A stretch of DNA of 30,099 nt from Antrodiella citrinella (taxonomy: Eukaryota; Basidiomycota; Agaricomycetes; Polyporales; Steccherinaceae), in the NCBI GenBank assembly GCA_004802725.1, contig SGPM01000328.1:1-30099 (forward strand), given 5' to 3'. Shown here piece after piece: positions 3,592-28,331 of the stretch. The first letter of the stretch is position 1. Each line of letters starts with the position of its first letter. A program made the position numbers and the translations under genes. Under the pieces are notes generated by a model. That model was given only the letters and a program-made list of their open reading frames with translations. It did no database searches and had not been told where the DNA came from.

Positions 3592-6500
3592 TTACCTCCG
3601 TCCAGACAAGCTGCCCTCTGCTCCCACCTTCTTCGCCACCGCAGCATCCCCCGAACCCTCCACAGCACGGTTCCACCGGTCAATCAACCTCGACACGCCC
3701 TGGAACGGCTTCTCCGGCGACGCGGACCTCTCCTCTGGCGGCGGCGGCGCAGACGCAGTGGCCTTGCGAGGTATGGGACGTTCGATAGTTGGCGTGGCCG
3801 ACGCACTGGTCGAAAATACCTTGCCAGAGTCAGGTGGGCCATTGCGTGAGGGCAGACCGTTCACAGCAGGTGTATTCTTCTCGAATCGTGAAAGTGACGG
3901 TGCAGGAGATGAACGACCTGGCAAGCCGGATATCGGTGACGTCCTCCCCGCTCTGGCCTGCTCTTTGCTGTCGTCGGGCACAGCAAGGTTAGCGTTTGCC
4001 ATAATTGGAGAGGATGTGGGTGACAGCCGAGGGAATCGAGATGCAGCAGTTGCGGGTGAAGAGACGCCAACACTCAAACTGCCGTCATTCCCATTGGGAG
4101 TCTTCACTGATAACCCAGCAGGTTTGGGAGCAGGAGCACCCGGGCCTGGACGAGCACCCTTATATGCTTCATATTTCTGAACCATGTCAGAGATGGACGA
4201 CCGTCTCTCAGAACGCTTCGCGCGAGCATCAGGAGCGGGGGGTGACAGGGATGAACTGGCAGCGTTGGGCGAGATGACTGAAGTGATCTGTTCGGAGGAG
4301 ATGGACTTCGACACGGCTCCAATGAGCATAGACTGCGGCCGAACTCGACCCGAGGTTGTCGTTGGAATAGGTGCAGGCAATGCTCGCGCACCAGGAGGTA
4401 AATGACCGGTGGTCTCTTTGCGATGTCCCTGTGTGCGTGATGGTGGCCTCGTGGAGTTCAAGCGACTCGTAGTGACACCCGGTGTCGTGGATGGCGCAGC
4501 AAGGGGAGCTGGGGAGGCGGATCGAGATTGCTCAGCGAAAACAGGTTGTTTCACTCTGGTAGCAGGGACGATCACAGACCGCCTCTTCTCGGGAGATTTG
4601 GGCGCAATGACACTCTTCTCTTTCTCCTTCTCCAAACCGCCACCCCAAAGGTCAACCAGATTGTGAACGGAGCTCTGCCGACTGTTGCTCTTGGTGCGTT
4701 TGCGTCTGGGTGAATCGTCAGGATTCCTCTCGACCAACTGATCCCGCAGTTTACTCGGCTCTTTGACTGTCTCCCGCGCACCACCCGTTGGTTGATAACC
4801 ACTGACATCCTCAGGACCGCCGTCACTTGAAGACGAAGACCCTTTCCGAGAAGGAGGCCCGGAAGGAGGTCCGACAGGACTCCAATTGTCGGTCAGACCA
4901 CTAGGGGAGGGCGCAGAGCTTCTCTTCGTGTCCAGAGCAGGGAGTTGGAGACCCCGAGTACTAGAGCCGGTGTTGTTGCTTCCAAGGCCTGGACGTGCGA
5001 TGAATCGGCTTGGCTTAGCTTGAGGCATAGGTTGCTCCTTCTCCTCACGTTCGCGTTCCTTCTCTCTCTCTCGTTGCTTTGCCTTCTCTCGATCCCGCTC
5101 CTCTCTCAGTCTTGACTTCTCCTTCTCCTCTTCATACTGCCTCTGTCTCTCCTCCAAAGAATCCTTCTCTTTCTGCCGCTGCCTCTCCTTATCCCGCCGT
5201 CTCTTTTGGTCTCTTTCCCTCTCCTTTTCCCGCTCCTGTTCCTTCTCGCTTTCCCTTTCTTTCTCCTTGAACCCCACTGATCCACCCTTCTCCAACTCCT
5301 CGACCGATGGCCAATGCCCGCTCACGGCCACATTCTCCGCCTCCAGTGCCTTCTGCATGAGCACAGGGCTCCTCTCGAAGAACGATGCCCTCTTGCTCGG
5401 ACTCTCCCGCAATATGGGCTCTCCTTGTGCAGGTGGAGGGACCGTCACCTCCTGTGATTCATCCGAGTTACCAGTCAACCAGTCTCGAGGTTCCTGCCCA
5501 GGAATAGGAATAGCCAGGGGACGTGGTGGCAATCTGGGCGGCGCATCGCTAGATCTGGAATTGGCTTGTGAATGAGGTGTTGGACCCGAGGAAAGGACCT
5601 CTGGCGGGGAGGATTGTGTGGGTGATTTGACAGTCAACGAGCTACGATGGCGTCGCGGAACGGGTCGAGAGACAGGGTTAGAGCTGGAACCTGATGGAGG
5701 TCTGGAGCTACTTCTGCCGTCCTTCTCCTTGGTCGAGACGTAGTCATTGTAATCTCCTCGACTCCAATCAGCCGTAGATAGCCTCGCAGCAGACATTCGC
5801 GACTCGCGCATAGCAGATCCAGTAACGTGCTGAGACCGTACACCATCGTATCGTCCTGCTCCAGCAGATGAAGAAACACCCACAGCGGTAGTTGCTCCGG
5901 TGCCTGTACTTCCGAGAGTCTGGCGAGGAGGCACCCCCAGCTGCATGCCCGCACGGGACAACGGGCGTGTAGGTGCAGTCGCAGGCACGGACTTCTCGTT
6001 GAGCTTCTCATTGGACGAAGGCTGAGACGGGACGCGCGGGCCAAATGACCCTCGCGCTGACGGCGCCGGAGACGGGGACGAGAACTTGCGATCGAGGTCC
6101 TCCAACGAGGGAAATTTCTCTTCCGCTGTGAGCTCACCAAGCTGGCGTGACGACGAGGGTGCTCTAGCATGAGGTGAAGAGCGCCATGATTCTGCTTGCT
6201 TGGAGGATGTAGATGGAGCGGGAGAGTGGGCACTGGGAGGTCGATAAGTCGTGTTACTAGTTCCCAAACCAGGCATGCCATTAGATGACGGTGCGATGAG
6301 GTATTGTGTTGAAGCCCTCTTCAGATTAGCACTGGGTTCGGGGCTGGCTGCGGAAGTGATTCCAGAACCGGTTCTCGTACGACGAGCATCTCCAAGTGTC
6401 TGCGGAGGTGGTTGAGACGGGATTCCTAGACCATCAAATGCGTCCTTTGGCTGGGAGCGCGAAAGAGGCACCTTTTTCGAAGGAGATGCAGAAGGAGACA

Positions 6501-8273
6501 GGTCTCCAGGCGAACGTGAAGGGCGGGATATAGGAGCTATCGGGATCGGCTGCGACTTGGCGTGAGGAGGCGGCTGAGCAGGAGATGACGGAGGTAGTGG
6601 AGACCTAGATGGCTCAAAAGTATCGCCGAATCCTTTCCCGAACGACGAGAAGTCACTGTCAAAGCCCGTAAATTTCCTCTCTGGTTTGTCGTCCCGCTCA
6701 TCCTTCTGCTGCGAAGTCATACCCCACGCATCCATCTTGGGCTGCGATGAACTACCTCCATAGCTAGCCATTCCAGACTTGTGACCCCGGATACCGCCCC
6801 ATGCACGATCACCGTCTGCACCAAACTTCGTATCCGTCAAAGCCTTCGAAGTTCGGTCTTTCTGTGGACTAGGGGGCGGCGTGATAACGCTACCAGGAGT
6901 GACAGTAGGACGTCCCCGGCGCATGGGAGCAATCGCTTCAAGCACTTTGTCGCGAGCTTCCACACCGGCATTGCGAGCAGGCGAAGAGGATTGTTGTGTA
7001 CGAGATTTGTACGTCACGAGATCGTCCAAGGGATTGACAGGTACGGGTGCGGGTAACAGAATATTTGGTGAGAGAGATTGCAAAGGGGGATATGGCTGCT
7101 GTTGTGTCGCCCGCGGTGGTATCGACTGCTGCTTGGATGGAATGGCGTACGTGAAGCGCGACTTGGTACCTCGAAGGGCGTGTACGTGTGTCAAAATCTC
7201 GAATACTGTTGGACGCTGAGCACCATGCTCCCGGAGCATTGAAGCTAGACGTTCTAAGTGAGGCTATTGATCTTGTTCTGAATGGGACTGTGGACGCACC
7301 TATTAGAGCGTTCATATGCTGCGAATAGACCGGGTATGGAGGGATCTTGTACTGAACATTGAGGATTGCCAGAGGCCCGTGCTCTTCGAAGGGGGTAGTA
7401 TAATAGCAAAGCTTGTAGAGTAGCACACCCAGCGCCCAGACGTCGCTCTTCTCATCTATAGGCCTCCGCATATGGACATCCACCATTTCTGGTGCTCGGT
7501 ACTGCAACGTAGTGTGGCGATTTAAATCGGCTTCAAGGGCCCGAAGCTCCTGGCTATTGCTCGGAATCTTCTGCACGGCAGTAGCACTTCCGAAGTCGCA
7601 GAGTTTGTACGACATAGCGGACGCCTGAAGAATGTTCTCTACTTTCAGATCGCGATGAAGCAACGGTGGTTTGAGGGAGTGCATAGCAGCAAGACCTTCG
7701 CACACTTCGACGAAAATTGTCAAGATCTCTGGTTCCGTCAATCGTTCACGTAGGCGACGATTCATCATATCGATGATGCCTCCTCCTGAGCAGAACTCCA
7801 TGAGGATGAAAACCTCGTACACTCCGTTGGACATTCGATGCCATGCCGCGTCGATCAGGTGAACGATGTTAGGGTGCCCTTTCAGTATTCGCTACATTAG
7901 AAAACCCATGAAACTAGATACATATAATCGTGAACTAAAGTTGCGCACCATGATATCAACTTCTTTCTTCACTTCTGTCAGCATGGACTCGTTTGGAACG
8001 GCGATGCGCTTCAGAACGTGGTGTGTGGTGCCGTAAACAGGCTGAGCGGTCCGTACGAGATAGACATGCGCGAATCCACCTGTTAGATAAGAGTGCAAGA
8101 AACCAAAGCATCTTCAGAGTTATAGTAGAGTATTTGTGAACAAAGCACGAACCTTGGCTCAGGTACCGGTCGACTTGGACAGTATATTTGTTGACCGCGA
8201 TGGTCTGACCGGGCATCAGAGTGCCTTTGTTTGACGACGGGGCTTGTGCAGGGAAGCCCTGAGGTTGCGCCAT
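3592..8273 (-). CDS. Ark1/Prk1/AAK1 (NAK) family serine/threonine protein kinase
   Basis: Exons 8273-8153, 8079-7949, 7891-7300 and 7253-3592 join in phase to 1,501 residues. The kinase domain (about residues 25-310) shows the glycine loop (SQGGFAHVY, 38-47), K64 in VLKRI, the catalytic loop HRDLKVEN with D165, DFGS at 183-186, and APEM. Family knowledge: NAK kinases (yeast Ark1/Prk1, animal AAK1/GAK) phosphorylate endocytic adaptors and regulators of cortical actin; DFGS and a large activation region are typical. The roughly 1,190-residue tail is disordered, rich in Ser, Pro and Arg, with many PP and SP sites and a Lys/Glu/Arg-rich predicted coiled coil at about 940-1024. The start is the first in-frame ATG; the frame stays open upstream through a serine run but has no ATG. 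The gene is divergent from the dehydrogenase at 8615. Family assignment is strong; substrates are inferred. Confidence 0.93.
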
Positions 8274-22982: not shown

Positions 22983-22990
22983 TTGTAGGC
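22983..22990. repeat. Left target-site duplication (TTGTAGGC)
   Basis: Eight bases, TTGTAGGC, directly before the left inverted repeat. The same eight bases follow the right inverted repeat at 28324-28331. The next base outward differs (T on the left, G in the transposon end on the right), so the duplication is exactly 8 bp. Confidence 0.92.
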
Positions 22991-23028
22991 CAAGGGGCGT
23001 TCACGCCAGCAAGCGCTGAATACAACCC
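22991..23028 (+). repeat. Left terminal inverted repeat of the transposon
   Basis: Bases 1-16 and 27-38 match the reverse complement of the right end exactly. The 10-base spacer (CAGCAAGCGC here) differs from the right end (TGAGAGTTTT). Conservation in two blocks with a fixed-length spacer suggests two separate transposase contact sites about one and a half helix turns apart or more. Confidence 0.92.
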
Positions 23029-23049
23029 CAGTAGTAGTTGCAGCGGCCT

Positions 23050-23078
23050 GTGCTTTCGGGGTCCTGATTTTAACTTTT
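23050..23078 (+). repeat. Subterminal 29-bp direct repeat, left copy
   Basis: GTGCTTTCGGGGTCCTG (23050-23066) and the following TTTTAACTTTT-like bases recur at 28255-28283 in the same orientation (17 identical bases, then 9 of 12). Here it is 21 bp inside the inverted repeat; at the right end it abuts it. Its relative orientation is opposite to that of the inverted repeats. Confidence 0.85.
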
Positions 23079-23200
23079 GAGATGACTCTGCCTCATATCG
23101 TGTGTAACGAGAGCGTCCGCCATTCGAGCGACTTGCAATAACCTCTGCGTGTATCCAACATATCATATTGATCAACTAGAATAGTCAGAAAGCTCATAAG

Positions 23201-23422
23201 ATGAGAAATACACGTAGAATTGCATATGAAGGCGCGAAGTCGCTTGGCGCTTCGGCTTCATCAGACGATCGCAAGATCGATAACGCGATACAAATCGTGC
23301 TCACTGCTCTACTTCGACCACCATCATCGACCAACCTTTCTACAAGGACGGCAGCCTGTAATCTCACCTACGACAAGGTATTGTCCTCGTATTTCTCGTT
23401 AATCACACTTCTCATCGTATAA
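23201..23422 (+). other. Possible upstream ORF in the transposase 5' leader
   Basis: An ATG at 23201 opens 73 codons ending 20 bp before the transposase ATG. The CAAG/GTATTG near 23376 and the CACAG at about 23435 could form a 5'-leader intron, but the phase does not let this frame fuse with the transposase. It may be a chance frame or an upstream ORF that reduces translation. No family resemblance. Confidence 0.25.
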
Positions 23423-23442
23423 ATCTCCGCCACAGCCCCACC

Positions 23443-26400
23443 ATGCCTAAGCCGCCGTTACCAGAGGTCCTCGAAGGCGAATCCGATAACACCAAGACCA
23501 TCCGCTTTTCCGATGGTGCTCAGCTCAAGACCTGGATTGGAGATGGTGCCGGGACACACTATGTGACCTGTGACCTGTGCGGGTTGGATATCGGACTCAC
23601 TGTCCATGCCCATCCGCTGTTCTTAGTGCGGCACCGAGGTACAAAGGTATGCAAGGCACGACAGAAGAAGAACCAGTTGGAAGAAGAGAGAACGAGAGCA
23701 GAAGAGCTCACCAGGACATTGTTCCCTCCCCCTCCAGCAACACAGCCGCCTTCAATGTCCGCAGCAGGATCGTCAACAGGTCCTCGTGAGGAGGGTGGGC
23801 CGTCTCACGCTGCTACTTCACTGTCTCGCCCAGTGACCCCGAGTCCACCTTCTCGTCCGGTGACCCCGCCGTCTCCTCTTCCTCCCTCCGATCCAGCACC
23901 TTCCACGCCTCCTCTAGTTCTCTCTCACTCGCCCCGTTTGAGGCGGTCCAATGTTACCGCTCGCACGATCTTCGAGTCCCTTCCAGAAGATGGTGAGGCC
24001 AATGACGATTGGTATAGTGCTTCAGACTCGGGAGCGTCTTCTGATTCCAACGGAGACTCCTCCCCCACACCTCGTCCCCCCAAATGTCAAGGTATTCTTG
24101 TCCGATGGAGTGCTGGCTCGGTGTGGGCGGATTATCCATACTTGCAACACGAGGAGCGGACTTGGCCTTGGGTACCGATTGGCTGGGAGAATGAGAACTG
24201 GCTGCGACTTCGGGCGACTGCCTGTAAGAACTGGGCTGAAGGTGACGAAGATAATTGTGTATCATGTCGAGCGGTACCGAGCTCTCGTCAATACATGAAT
24301 TTTCTGTCTCGCGCAAAAGACGGTGTTCGGAGCCATACGCCGTGGGCGTACTTGACGGGAAATCAAATGAAGGCAATGCTTGGCAAGTTGACAACAGACT
24401 TCCGACAGCTATCAGTCAAGGTAGGTTTATTCATTTTCATCTGTGAAGCCAGTCTACTCACGGCGTTGAATTCAGTATCAGAACTTAAAGCGTAAAATTG
24501 CAACATTGAATAGGAAGTTGAACGATAACCAGCGGATCGTGATGCTTCTTTCAAAGCATGATGTACGCGGACTTCGACGCCTTCTATTGGTTTCACTGCG
24601 TCGCGGCGCTAGCCCTCGTGCTATCCTGGATCAGCTAGAACGAGCAATCGCGGGTACATACTCGCCGAAAGGTGGTTTTACTCAGCGGGACATTGACATA
24701 TCCTTCCTTGTGAAAGCAATTGGTGGACCCCGTTTATTATACGCTCTCTATCGATCTCACGGGCTTGCTTCTGTTACGACGATCTCCCGCCATCAGAAGA
24801 TACCACGTCTCATTGCATGTCGAGGAAATCCTACCAAGGCGGAAGTATTGGCGAATATCGCTGCATTCTACGACCCGGAGAATACACGGTCATCATCCGA
24901 GTCCTCTCCTATTCAATCAACATCCGGTACCTCTGCCCAACCGACGGCGACTCAGAAGCTTCCTGGACACATCGTGATGGTCGACGATGTGACTATAAAC
25001 GAGAAGTGTCGGTATGACACAAAACGGGACTGTGTCTTAGGGCTCTGTAGACAACATTCGCATAATGTGGTCACTCAGGTGACAGACCTGGCATCCGTGG
25101 AAAGAATTGCAAAAGCCCTTGAAGATGAGAAGTGTTGCTTCGGAAAGGACGCCACAATTGCTGCTGTTGCTCCATACGGCCGGCGTGTTCATTATAGTCC
25201 CACACCTGTCTTAGCGTCGCCCACTTGCAAACATGACACGGGAGAGAATATCGCTGAGTGGCAGGCAATTGTTCTGGAAGCATGGTCGGAAAGTCCGTAT
25301 GGGGAGGCCCTTCACGGTCCCATATGGTCGTTGGGTACCGATGGCGAGGCTTCCTTTCGCCTTGCACAGTGCATTCTTTGTTTGGCCCATCCGGTGGACC
25401 CCGACTCTGTGCTAGGCCGCGCTTTGCAGAAGCTTGACGGTGTCAATACCATGACAAGCCGTACTGGTGTTGTCGCAACCTGTGACCCCAAGCATGTTAT
25501 CAAACACTTCGCAACTTTAGCACGCAACCCCCAAGGTATTGCCATCGGAACCACGGTTGTGACATGCGACGACATATACGAGAACCTGCAAACTATCACT
25601 GGTGTTACACCTGAGACAGCCATGCAGCTTCTTGATCCCGCAGACAAGCAGAATGTACCGAAAGCTGTCAATCTTGTCCAACACATGCTTATGCTAGAGG
25701 CGCAGCCGCTGCCGCTGCTTCCTGGAAAAGAGCATCGGCGCAAGCAGCTTTCCCTCTTTGCAAAGATTGTTGGGAGTTTCACTTTACCATTCATTATCAC
25801 GGATATGAGCCTCTCACAGCAAATCCGATCTCTGGCAAAGTATGCATACGCCGCTGCAGCTATGTGGATCAAACACGGGACTGGGTTCATGACAGGCGCA
25901 CTCTACGCAGACTCACAGGCGATTGTCAAGAACATCATCTTCTGTATACTGCGTCTTCAGGAGATTGACCCTGAGCTCGAACTCTTCATCATGCACGAAG
26001 GAACAGACCGCCTCGAAGGCCTATTTTCCGACTGCAGAACACAAGATCACAATGTCAATTTCGACATTCTACAGTTGACGGAGAAGCTCAGCACGGCTGC
26101 CATCATCGATCGTATTATGGAACGCAACCCCGACTTGGACCGGGGGCATCGACGTTTGGACCTCAAAGGTGCTATGGGAGTCGACCGCGTGAACCCACAC
26201 AGTTGGCGAGGTGACGTGCATGTCGGACGAGTCGAGTTAGCGGCTGAGCTATCAGCTGCACGAGATGAGGCGAACGAGCTGTTGGTCTCATATTTGGGGG
26301 CAGATGCTCGATGCGATTTCGTGGCGCTGTTCGCGAAACCAAACCATGATCTATTGCGTCCAGAAGGAGAATATGTAGGCGTACATCTAACAGAGGATGA

Positions 26401-28114
26401 TCGCCGCACGGAGGACCCTGAACCTACTATTCCGGATATTGAGAAGCCACTGGAAGGTGATAGCGACAAGACTGATGAGGCCGACGACGACCTTCATGAT
26501 GATCTACCCGAAGGTATGGACATTGACGACTTCCTTCCCGATACCATGGATGCGATGGACCGGGGAGAGGATTCGGACAATATGAAGCAAGTGATCATGG
26601 TCGAAGGAAAGAAGTACCTGAAGGCGTCGGTCGTGTCGTCATTACTCAGCTCCAAACGGGCCCGAAAAGTGACAATGCGACCTCTGCGTGTACGCGGTGT
26701 GACACTGGAGGAGCTACATAGTGGACGCAACAACTTGAACTCCGTGGATATAGCAGGCGACGACCATATCAAGAGTGGCGACACGGCATCAACCTTGGTG
26801 CGAGTGGAGGAGCAGTTGTGTCTAGCTATTGTGGAGGTTGTAGCTTTTGTGAAAGGGGCCACCGGGGCAAGCAAATCGAGGCTATCGTCGATGTCAGTCG
26901 ATGAATTGGAGAAGGCTGGATCTAAGGTTGAGGTACTCGCCCAGGTCTTAGAGATGACGCCCTACCAGAGCGAGGGAAGCAGCGAGGAGGGGGAGGGCAC
27001 CGCGGACTCGACGGAACCAAAGTACTGGAGATGGACCTGTCAGTATATCCGCTTTGAATCAAAATCAGGACGAACTGGCCAACGTCAGCTCATGATATCC
27101 ATACCTGGGTCACTGTTACATCCACTGGGTCCCGATATTCGACCGCAGCCCCCATCAATAGAAAGAGCTCTTCGGACCGAGGAGTCCCTTCCGCGGTCAG
27201 AGATAACGTGGATATTTGAGCAATCTCAGCTTGAAGAGATCCTCCATTTCGCATGGGAATCGTTGCAGCCAACGAGCGAGTCCGTCGTCGCAAACCTCAA
27301 GCTCGTCCCTGCTGTGAAGACATGCAGTCTTCCTTACAAGGGGCCTCAAGGTACGTGATCTTCTTCCACAAACGTATGAAGAATTGGGAACAAATCTACA
27401 AACAGGAGATATGCAATTGATTGTCAATGATCTTCCTGCACATTTGATGGTGAAGAAGCTCACCAAAGATGCACGAGTCTCGTGCTACCTCTGCGGACGG
27501 GAAGAGACCCTCGCCGCGATGCGCAATCATGTTGGCATCCACATCTTGCGAGCGATGCGACACGCGAAGGAAAAATTGATCATGGAGGTACGATGTTTGT
27601 TCCTACGCTAACTCACCGTGACACTAAAACGTGCATCTAGGTTGGCGCAGAACCTTGTGGCTTCTGTGGTCGCGATGGCTCCTGCGTGACATACTTCACG
27701 CAAAACGGATCCAAGACATCGATCGAATCAAGCTGCCGGTACCACCATGATAATATGAGCTACAGCGCAGCTGAAAAAAGCACGAAGAACTCACCTAGCA
27801 CCAATGTTCCCATTCTATGTCCTTTATGTGCCTCAGCCGACCCGCCTGTTGGTCCCCACACATCGTGGAAGTACAACATGCCATTTCACATCTTGAAGGA
27901 GCACGGGGTCGACCAGGTCACGCCGGAACTCGTTGTTCGAATGTTCATAAGCCGAGAGGAAGAGGAGAGGATAGGGATTGAGGAAGAGGAGACGAAAAAA
28001 TTCCGCGATGAGTTCAAGATACCGGGAAGTGACGATGTGAAGGAGATACGGAAGCGGGAACGAGCAGCGTCGATGCTGAGCGCAGGGAGGCGAAGGAAAT
28101 ATGTGAAGAAGTAG
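23443..28114 (+). CDS. Large RNase H-like transposase with N- and C-terminal zinc-binding clusters (uncharacterised agaricomycete family)
   Basis: Exons 23443-24420, 24476-27350, 27406-27587 and 27641-28114 join in phase to 1,502 residues. N-terminus: CDLC...H...C (C43, C46, H64, C70), then a Pro/Ser-rich disordered linker (about 100-210) and a basic helical segment (QNLKRKIATLNRKLNDNQR, from 328). Catalytic core: VMVDDVTINEKCRYD (D496/D497) followed by LGLCRQH; WSLGTDGEASFR (D615); TCDPKHVIKHF (D663); and EGTDRLEGLFSDCRTQDHNVN (D837, E840). This order of acidic residues and the late D-x2-E before an R...H/N motif is that of P/hAT-like RNase H transposases with an inserted helical domain. C-terminus: an acidic stretch, then C2H2-like CYLCGREETLAAMRNHVGIH, CGFCGRDG, and CPLCASADP with a distant HILKEH, and a basic end. 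Similar proteins recur in agaricomycetes as hypothetical proteins. Catalytic assignments are inferred. Confidence 0.85.
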
Positions 28115-28254
28115 TGCAATGTCCGATGTTGGTCTCGAGTACGAGGGGAATGTGTTCAGACGATTCGGACAAGCAGTAATCGCCTGAGCGATCAATGTCC
28201 GATCATGCAAGCTTCGGTGAGATCTCATCTTATCAGTAGTAGTCCACCCTTCCC

Positions 28255-28283
28255 GTGCTTTCGGGGTCCTGGCTTCAACTTTT
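28255..28283 (+). repeat. Subterminal 29-bp direct repeat, right copy
   Basis: Matches 23050-23078 in the same strand orientation; identical over the first 17 bases. It ends next to the right inverted repeat. Confidence 0.85.
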
Positions 28284-28285
28284 CA

Positions 28286-28323
28286 GGGTTGTATTCAAAA
28301 ACTCTCAGCGTGAACGCCCCTTG
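28286..28323 (-). repeat. Right terminal inverted repeat of the transposon
   Basis: On the minus strand it reads CAAGGGGCGTTCACGC, ten variable bases, TGAATACAACCC. It is the exact mirror of the left end outside the spacer. Confidence 0.92.
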
Positions 28324-28331
28324 TTGTAGGC
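28324..28331. repeat. Right target-site duplication (TTGTAGGC)
   Basis: Perfect copy of 22983-22990, directly after the last base of the right inverted repeat. Confidence 0.92.

Follow-up and report, generated by a model that had tools for sequence, protein, structure and literature searches.

What kind of locus is formed when a large open gene lies between paired inverted repeats, and from which family of enzymes does its product descend? The question is raised by positions 22983 to 28331 of contig SGPM01000328.1 of the mushroom Antrodiella citrinella (assembly GCA_004802725.1), within a stretch of 30,099 nucleotides that was analysed as a whole and is called here the window. That this sequence is a DNA transposon is near certain, and the enzyme that it encodes most likely belongs to a divergent lineage of the P element superfamily in mushrooms, and would move the element by cut-and-paste as P transposase does. 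Since the link in sequence is weak and partial and the fold match is that of a predicted structure, the enzyme is called a likely branch of the superfamily, and not a proven member.

The limits of the element, which is preceded in the window by frames that look like ordinary host genes, are the following:

22983-22990, no strand: left target-site duplication TTGTAGGC, read directly and identical to 28324-28331
22991-28323, plus strand: transposon of 5,333 base pairs (bp), delimited by inverted repeats and duplication, with a deleted copy on contig C542 that has same-type ends
22991-23006, plus strand: left terminal inverted repeat, outer block CAAGGGGCGTTCACGC, 16/16 to 28308-28323
23017-23028, plus strand: left inverted repeat, inner block TGAATACAACCC, 12/12 to 28286-28297
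28286-28297, minus strand: right inverted repeat, inner block, 12/12 to the left inner block
28308-28323, minus strand: right terminal inverted repeat, outer block, 16/16 to the left outer block
28324-28331, no strand: right target-site duplication TTGTAGGC, read directly

Over their first 38 bp the two ends are identical at 16/16, then 1/10, then 12/12 positions (29/38 in total), and both the perfect 8-bp duplication and the repeats of 16 identical, 10 variable and 12 identical positions that the original prediction had described were thus recovered. A scan for 16-bp inverted repeats adjoining 8-bp duplications at eight transposase loci, covering 8.6e7 position pairs, would be expected to yield 3e-7 perfect matches at equal base frequencies. 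In 40 shuffled loci perfect matches were absent, and three matches arose when four mismatches were allowed. Judged by its sequence, the window copy looks potentially autonomous. The joined flanks of the element, searched in the one A. citrinella assembly, match only the window itself.

The element belongs to a transposon family in this genome. The protein encoded by exon 2 of its gene matches 17 stretches in eight contigs, the window's included (genome match counts for large families are lower bounds, here and below), and eight other transposase-bearing loci could be told apart: both ends were found in six, one end in C410, and none for the fragment C218a. Exact 8-bp duplications, all different, flank four of the seven both-ended elements, a 6/8 duplication flanks one, and two have none. 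The exact ones are those of the window, of C575 (5,302 bp, GGAGTATG), of C549 (5,292 bp, GGTACAGC, repeats 20/24) and of C218b (3,841 bp, GACAGACG, in which only parts of the protein were matched), so that the anticipated genome copies with ends of the same kind and different duplications do exist, and these sister elements strengthen the identification as a DNA transposon. C590 has repeats of 20/20 and ends of the window-element type, and C542 is an internally deleted copy of 1,837 bp, whose matched parts show 89-91% identity and whose ends are of the same type; both are without a duplication. In this deleted copy (C542:247882-249718) about 520 bases between the matched parts have no match to the full element, and at one end the two repeat blocks are no longer separated by the 10-bp spacer.

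A more distant branch is represented by C462 (C462:15897-20971), whose protein is 30-32% identical to that of the window, and which has perfect inverted repeats (150/150 bp, starting CAAGGGGTGTCAGATCC) and the 6/8 duplication. Its type of left end was matched on eight contigs (C462, C463, C160, C318, C190, C175, C91, weakly, and C218:34353), and C190 bears a 652-bp element that appears to be a non-autonomous copy. The eight bases CGTCGACA stand outside such an end on C160 and, properly oriented, outside one on C463, which are therefore probably two sides of one element split by the assembly; ACATGATG likewise borders ends of this type on C218 and on C190 from the outside. Two further insertions across contigs (C160/C463 and C218/C190) are inferred in this way, and were left out of the element and duplication counts. 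The region C218:24700-34648 is nested: it comprises fragment C218a, a stretch beside C218b that in our reading resembles the 5' subterminal part of C590, and a C462-type end that lies 8 bp beyond the right duplication of C218b, near the contig end. KDZ (Kyakuja, Dileera, Zisupton) transposase domains are abundant in the genome, with 27 matches to PF18758, and one on C218 (21971-22657) lies about 5 kilobases from C218a.

The transposase gene was read as four exons, joined across GT-AG introns of 55, 55 and 53 bp:

23443-24420, plus strand: exon 1, with the N-terminal Cys/His motif C43-x2-C46...H64-x5-C70, a disordered linker and a second Cys-containing part (splicing predicted)
24476-27350, plus strand: exon 2, with an RNase H-like catalytic core and helical insertion, then a beta-rich part (structure predicted)
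27406-27587, plus strand: exon 3, with a C2H2-like Cys/His motif (CYLCG...HVGIH), read directly (splicing predicted)
27641-28114, plus strand: exon 4, with further Cys/His motifs and the stop codon, read directly (splicing predicted)

The single uninterrupted gene of 1,502 residues that had been proposed stands as to its length, with 1,502 codons before one terminal stop, but it is uninterrupted only after predicted splicing, and the public gene model at this locus, EUX98_g7582, which is the best protein-search match, has 1,270 residues. The N-terminal C-x2-C...H-x5-C motif is followed by a long predicted helix. Against a library of 24,736 Pfam models the protein has two matches at E <= 10, both weak and unrelated, and no transposase model occurs among the 25 Pfam families listed, out of 27 in all, for 35 scanned family members. 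Of 7,991 candidates scored in a search with the window protein, 139 were relatives at E <= 0.001; a 35-row alignment used as the query yielded 214 at E <= 0.01, and 120 were listed in each case. Among the 120 of 139, the named hosts are by our own assignment all Agaricomycetes, and the labels are hypothetical or uncharacterised, except for a few marked C2H2-type and one fused model labelled GMC oxidoreductase, in agreement with the suggestion that these are uncharacterised agaricomycete proteins. The database model EUX98_g8999 (contig C549) fuses the transposase to a GMC oxidoreductase, likely an annotation join.

Which superfamily such an enzyme could belong to is indicated foremost by its predicted core, in which D496, D615 and E840 would be the catalytic residues of an RNase H fold with an all-helical insertion that is placed, like the one of P transposase, between beta5 and the Glu helix. 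The positions concerned, with their conservation in 119 aligned rows, are:

24983-24985, plus strand: predicted first catalytic Asp, D496 (D170 of exon 2), in strand 165-173; 0.99 of rows
25340-25342, plus strand: predicted second catalytic Asp, D615 (D289 of exon 2), just after strand 283-288; invariant
25484-25495, plus strand: D-x2-H signature, D663/H666 (D337/H340 of exon 2), before the insertion; invariant, and the same motif as P D339-x2-H342
25646-25657, plus strand: KQNV motif in the insertion, K717-V720 (K391-V394 of exon 2); 0.98-0.99 of rows, proposed counterpart of P K398-Q-K-V401
26006-26017, plus strand: D-x2-E with the predicted catalytic Glu, D837/E840 (D511/E514 of exon 2); 1.0 and 0.99 of rows, with the spacing of P D528 and E531

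The match of this predicted structure to P transposase lies far above all others. The D-x2-H string, which reads D337-P-K-H340 in exon 2 numbering, precedes the insertion domain as in the P superfamily, where the signature is described as D339 in a D-x2-H motif (PMC8230255), and the 8-bp target-site duplication is also a feature of that superfamily. Local comparison with a profile built from 32 of 120 listed P relatives gave two alignments, one of 95 columns with a P-value of 0.0017 and one of 38 columns with a P-value of 0.0026; the local score of 33.2 exceeds those of all 59 block-shuffled P profiles (mean 21.7, maximum 26.9). The earlier proposal of a cut-and-paste transposase family is supported, and can be sharpened to a likely P branch.

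Further likeness to P is suggested by a 10-bp box inside each end, a candidate transposase-binding site:

23057-23066, plus strand: left subterminal box CGGGGTCCTG, at position 67 from the left end; same orientation in C549, C218b, C590 and C542, and in a genome pattern
28262-28271, plus strand: right subterminal box CGGGGTCCTG (CAGGACCCCG when read inward from the end), at position 53; found in C549, C218b, C590 and C542, and in a genome pattern

CAGGACCCCG or a one-mismatch form of it occurs inside each end in five of the seven both-ended elements (the window's, C542, C549, C218b and C590), or four of six types. On the gene-3' side the box reads inward and lies 52-67 bp from the end (33 bp in the deleted copy C542); on the gene-5' side it reads outward, at 67-77 bp, so that the two are direct repeats along the coding strand. 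In a total of 27,562 bp of element interiors there are two sites of this type. In the whole genome, 4/6 matches to one end-plus-box pattern and 4/8 to the other are ends of these elements, and the backward controls gave none. In Drosophila P, 10-bp sites bound by the transposase lie 9 and 21 bp from the repeats; by analogy, the unequal spacing of the boxes suggests that one end of each kind would be brought together by the enzyme.

A number of observations weigh against this reading. As regards mobility, C590 and C542 are both-ended and yet have no duplication, that of C462 is only 6/8, the splicing of the gene is predicted, and this assembly holds neither an empty site for the window element nor a second near-identical copy of it. 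As regards the boxes, C575 and C462 have none at one mismatch; the C575 form is one base short and reads inward at 48 from both ends, and the single end of C410, on the gene-5' side, has a box reading inward at 47, opposite in orientation to the others. As regards P itself, the local alignments span 95 and 38 columns only, the longer covering just the part before and around the first Asp. One global setting gave a P-value of 4.9e-6 and paired KQNV with P K398-Q-K-V401, with the second Asp not paired with P D303, and the other gave no signal (3.1 versus a shuffle mean of 3.1); since the result varies with the setting, it was not relied upon. The profile matched a single P sequence at E 0.076, the P-type Pfam models PF21787, PF21788, PF21789 and PF12017 have no match to the window protein at E <= 10, and sequence profiles found no P entry in PDB. 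No THAP model in Pfam matches the protein at E <= 10, and the P residue D444, involved with guanosine triphosphate (GTP), has no assignable counterpart; the KQ-x-V motif appears to be kept. One C462-type piece has a single Pfam hit at E <= 1, PF21787 (P-type RNase H) at E 0.11, below the cut-off, and the other piece has none at E <= 1; PF21787 has no match in this genome, but its control likewise gave none anywhere.

These points leave some room for a separate, undescribed superfamily of DDE (Asp-Asp-Glu) transposases, which would have in common with P only the plan of an RNase H core with helical insertion and the 8-bp stagger. The weak and partial similarity to P, the undetected THAP domain, the extra C-terminal parts of the 1,502-residue protein and the unassigned D444 all speak for it, and the fold match and the shuffled-profile comparison for P; we regard a separate superfamily as unlikely. 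A hAT element, to which the CAAGG ends and 8-bp duplications had pointed, is very improbable and largely refuted, as hAT dimerisation and catalytic models have no match to the protein at E <= 10; CA-type ends are the hAT end rule. Still less credence can be given to a KDZ element (Zisupton or Dileera), a family proposed for comparison at the outset: such elements are common in this genome, and 8-bp duplications are likewise made in fungi by Zisupton and by the Dileera Zisupton-1_PGr (PMC12730594), but PF18758 is absent from the window protein at E <= 10, and none of its 27 genome matches lies inside a both-ended element of this family. Finally, an immobile host gene lying between repeats by chance, which the open frame and single full-length copy would allow, is negligible in view of the same-type ends at diverged relatives with different exact duplications, the deleted copy, and the 3e-7 perfect matches expected by chance.

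If the enzyme is indeed a divergent P transposase, its Cys/His parts, standing in for THAP, could bind the 10-bp boxes. The unequal spacing of these boxes would serve to pair the two ends, which would be cut at CAAGGGG and inserted into new DNA with an 8-bp stagger. GTP use as in P is plausible by analogy. A bolder proposal, slightly less likely to be right than wrong, is that of a large kingdom-specific P branch in mushrooms that never had THAP, with likely GTP-assisted cut-and-paste, ends read by other zinc fingers, and a direct-repeat, unequally spaced 10-bp box that would pair the ends by a 12/23-like rule, THAP being a later animal addition to an older enzyme.

Elsewhere in the window, frames on the reverse strand at 3592-7834 read, from an HRDLK motif, as a putative protein kinase with a long Ser/Pro-rich tail.

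P elements are a textbook animal transposon, and if the present reading is true, P-like cut-and-paste transposons extend from animals and rust fungi to mushrooms. A THAP-less P-like family across Agaricomycetes would then serve as an outgroup for separating old from animal-added parts of the mechanism (GTP, asymmetric ends), and would account for proteins left blank by the library of 24,736 Pfam models. For elements that are at present recorded as hypothetical host genes, annotators gain ends that are defined, the length of the duplication and a subterminal box. Fungi were already known to have P elements: a rust genome paper of 2011 (PMC3164196) describes members of the P superfamily from Puccinia, which had not been known before in any Dikarya, and, from Melampsora, intact elements with 8-bp duplications. 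Among the open-licence papers listed by searches aimed at P elements in Agaricomycetes, basidiomycetes or fungi, none was recognised as describing them in mushrooms, although a Repbase or Dfam entry for this family may exist, and the accessible part of a 2025 survey of TET-bearing fungal transposons mentions neither "P element" nor "P superfamily" (PMC12730594).

Among known systems, hAT elements are alike in 8-bp duplications, CA-type ends and an RNase H core with an insertion domain. Fungal KDZ elements are also DNA transposons of Agaricomycetes, and the accessible survey text gives Zisupton and a Dileera 8-bp duplications, and two Kyakuja families 7-bp duplications and no inverted repeats (PMC12730594); PF18758 has no match here. 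THAP9 and the zebrafish P-like elements share 8-bp duplications, short outer and inner repeats (theirs of 13 and 12 bp) and the D-x2-H signature; they differ in their animal hosts, their THAP domain, and the distance of about 400 bp between outer and inner repeats, against 10 bp in the window element. A 2020 review describes THAP as restricted to animals and P transposase as unique in its use of a GTP cofactor (PMC7776569). Compared with Drosophila P (transposase structure 6p5a / 6pe2), the window element has a mushroom host, CA[A/G]GGG ends, boxes directly repeated along the coding strand (as in five of the seven elements with both ends), and a protein of 1,502 residues with an extra C-terminal beta-rich part, in which Cys/His motifs at the N and C terminus are found instead of a detectable THAP domain. 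The rust-fungus P elements of Repbase (P-1_MLP and P-2_MLP of Melampsora, P-1_PSt of Puccinia), likened here by description, belong to a different host subphylum, and resemble the present family in their basidiomycete hosts, 8-bp duplications, and both autonomous and non-autonomous copies (PMC3164196).
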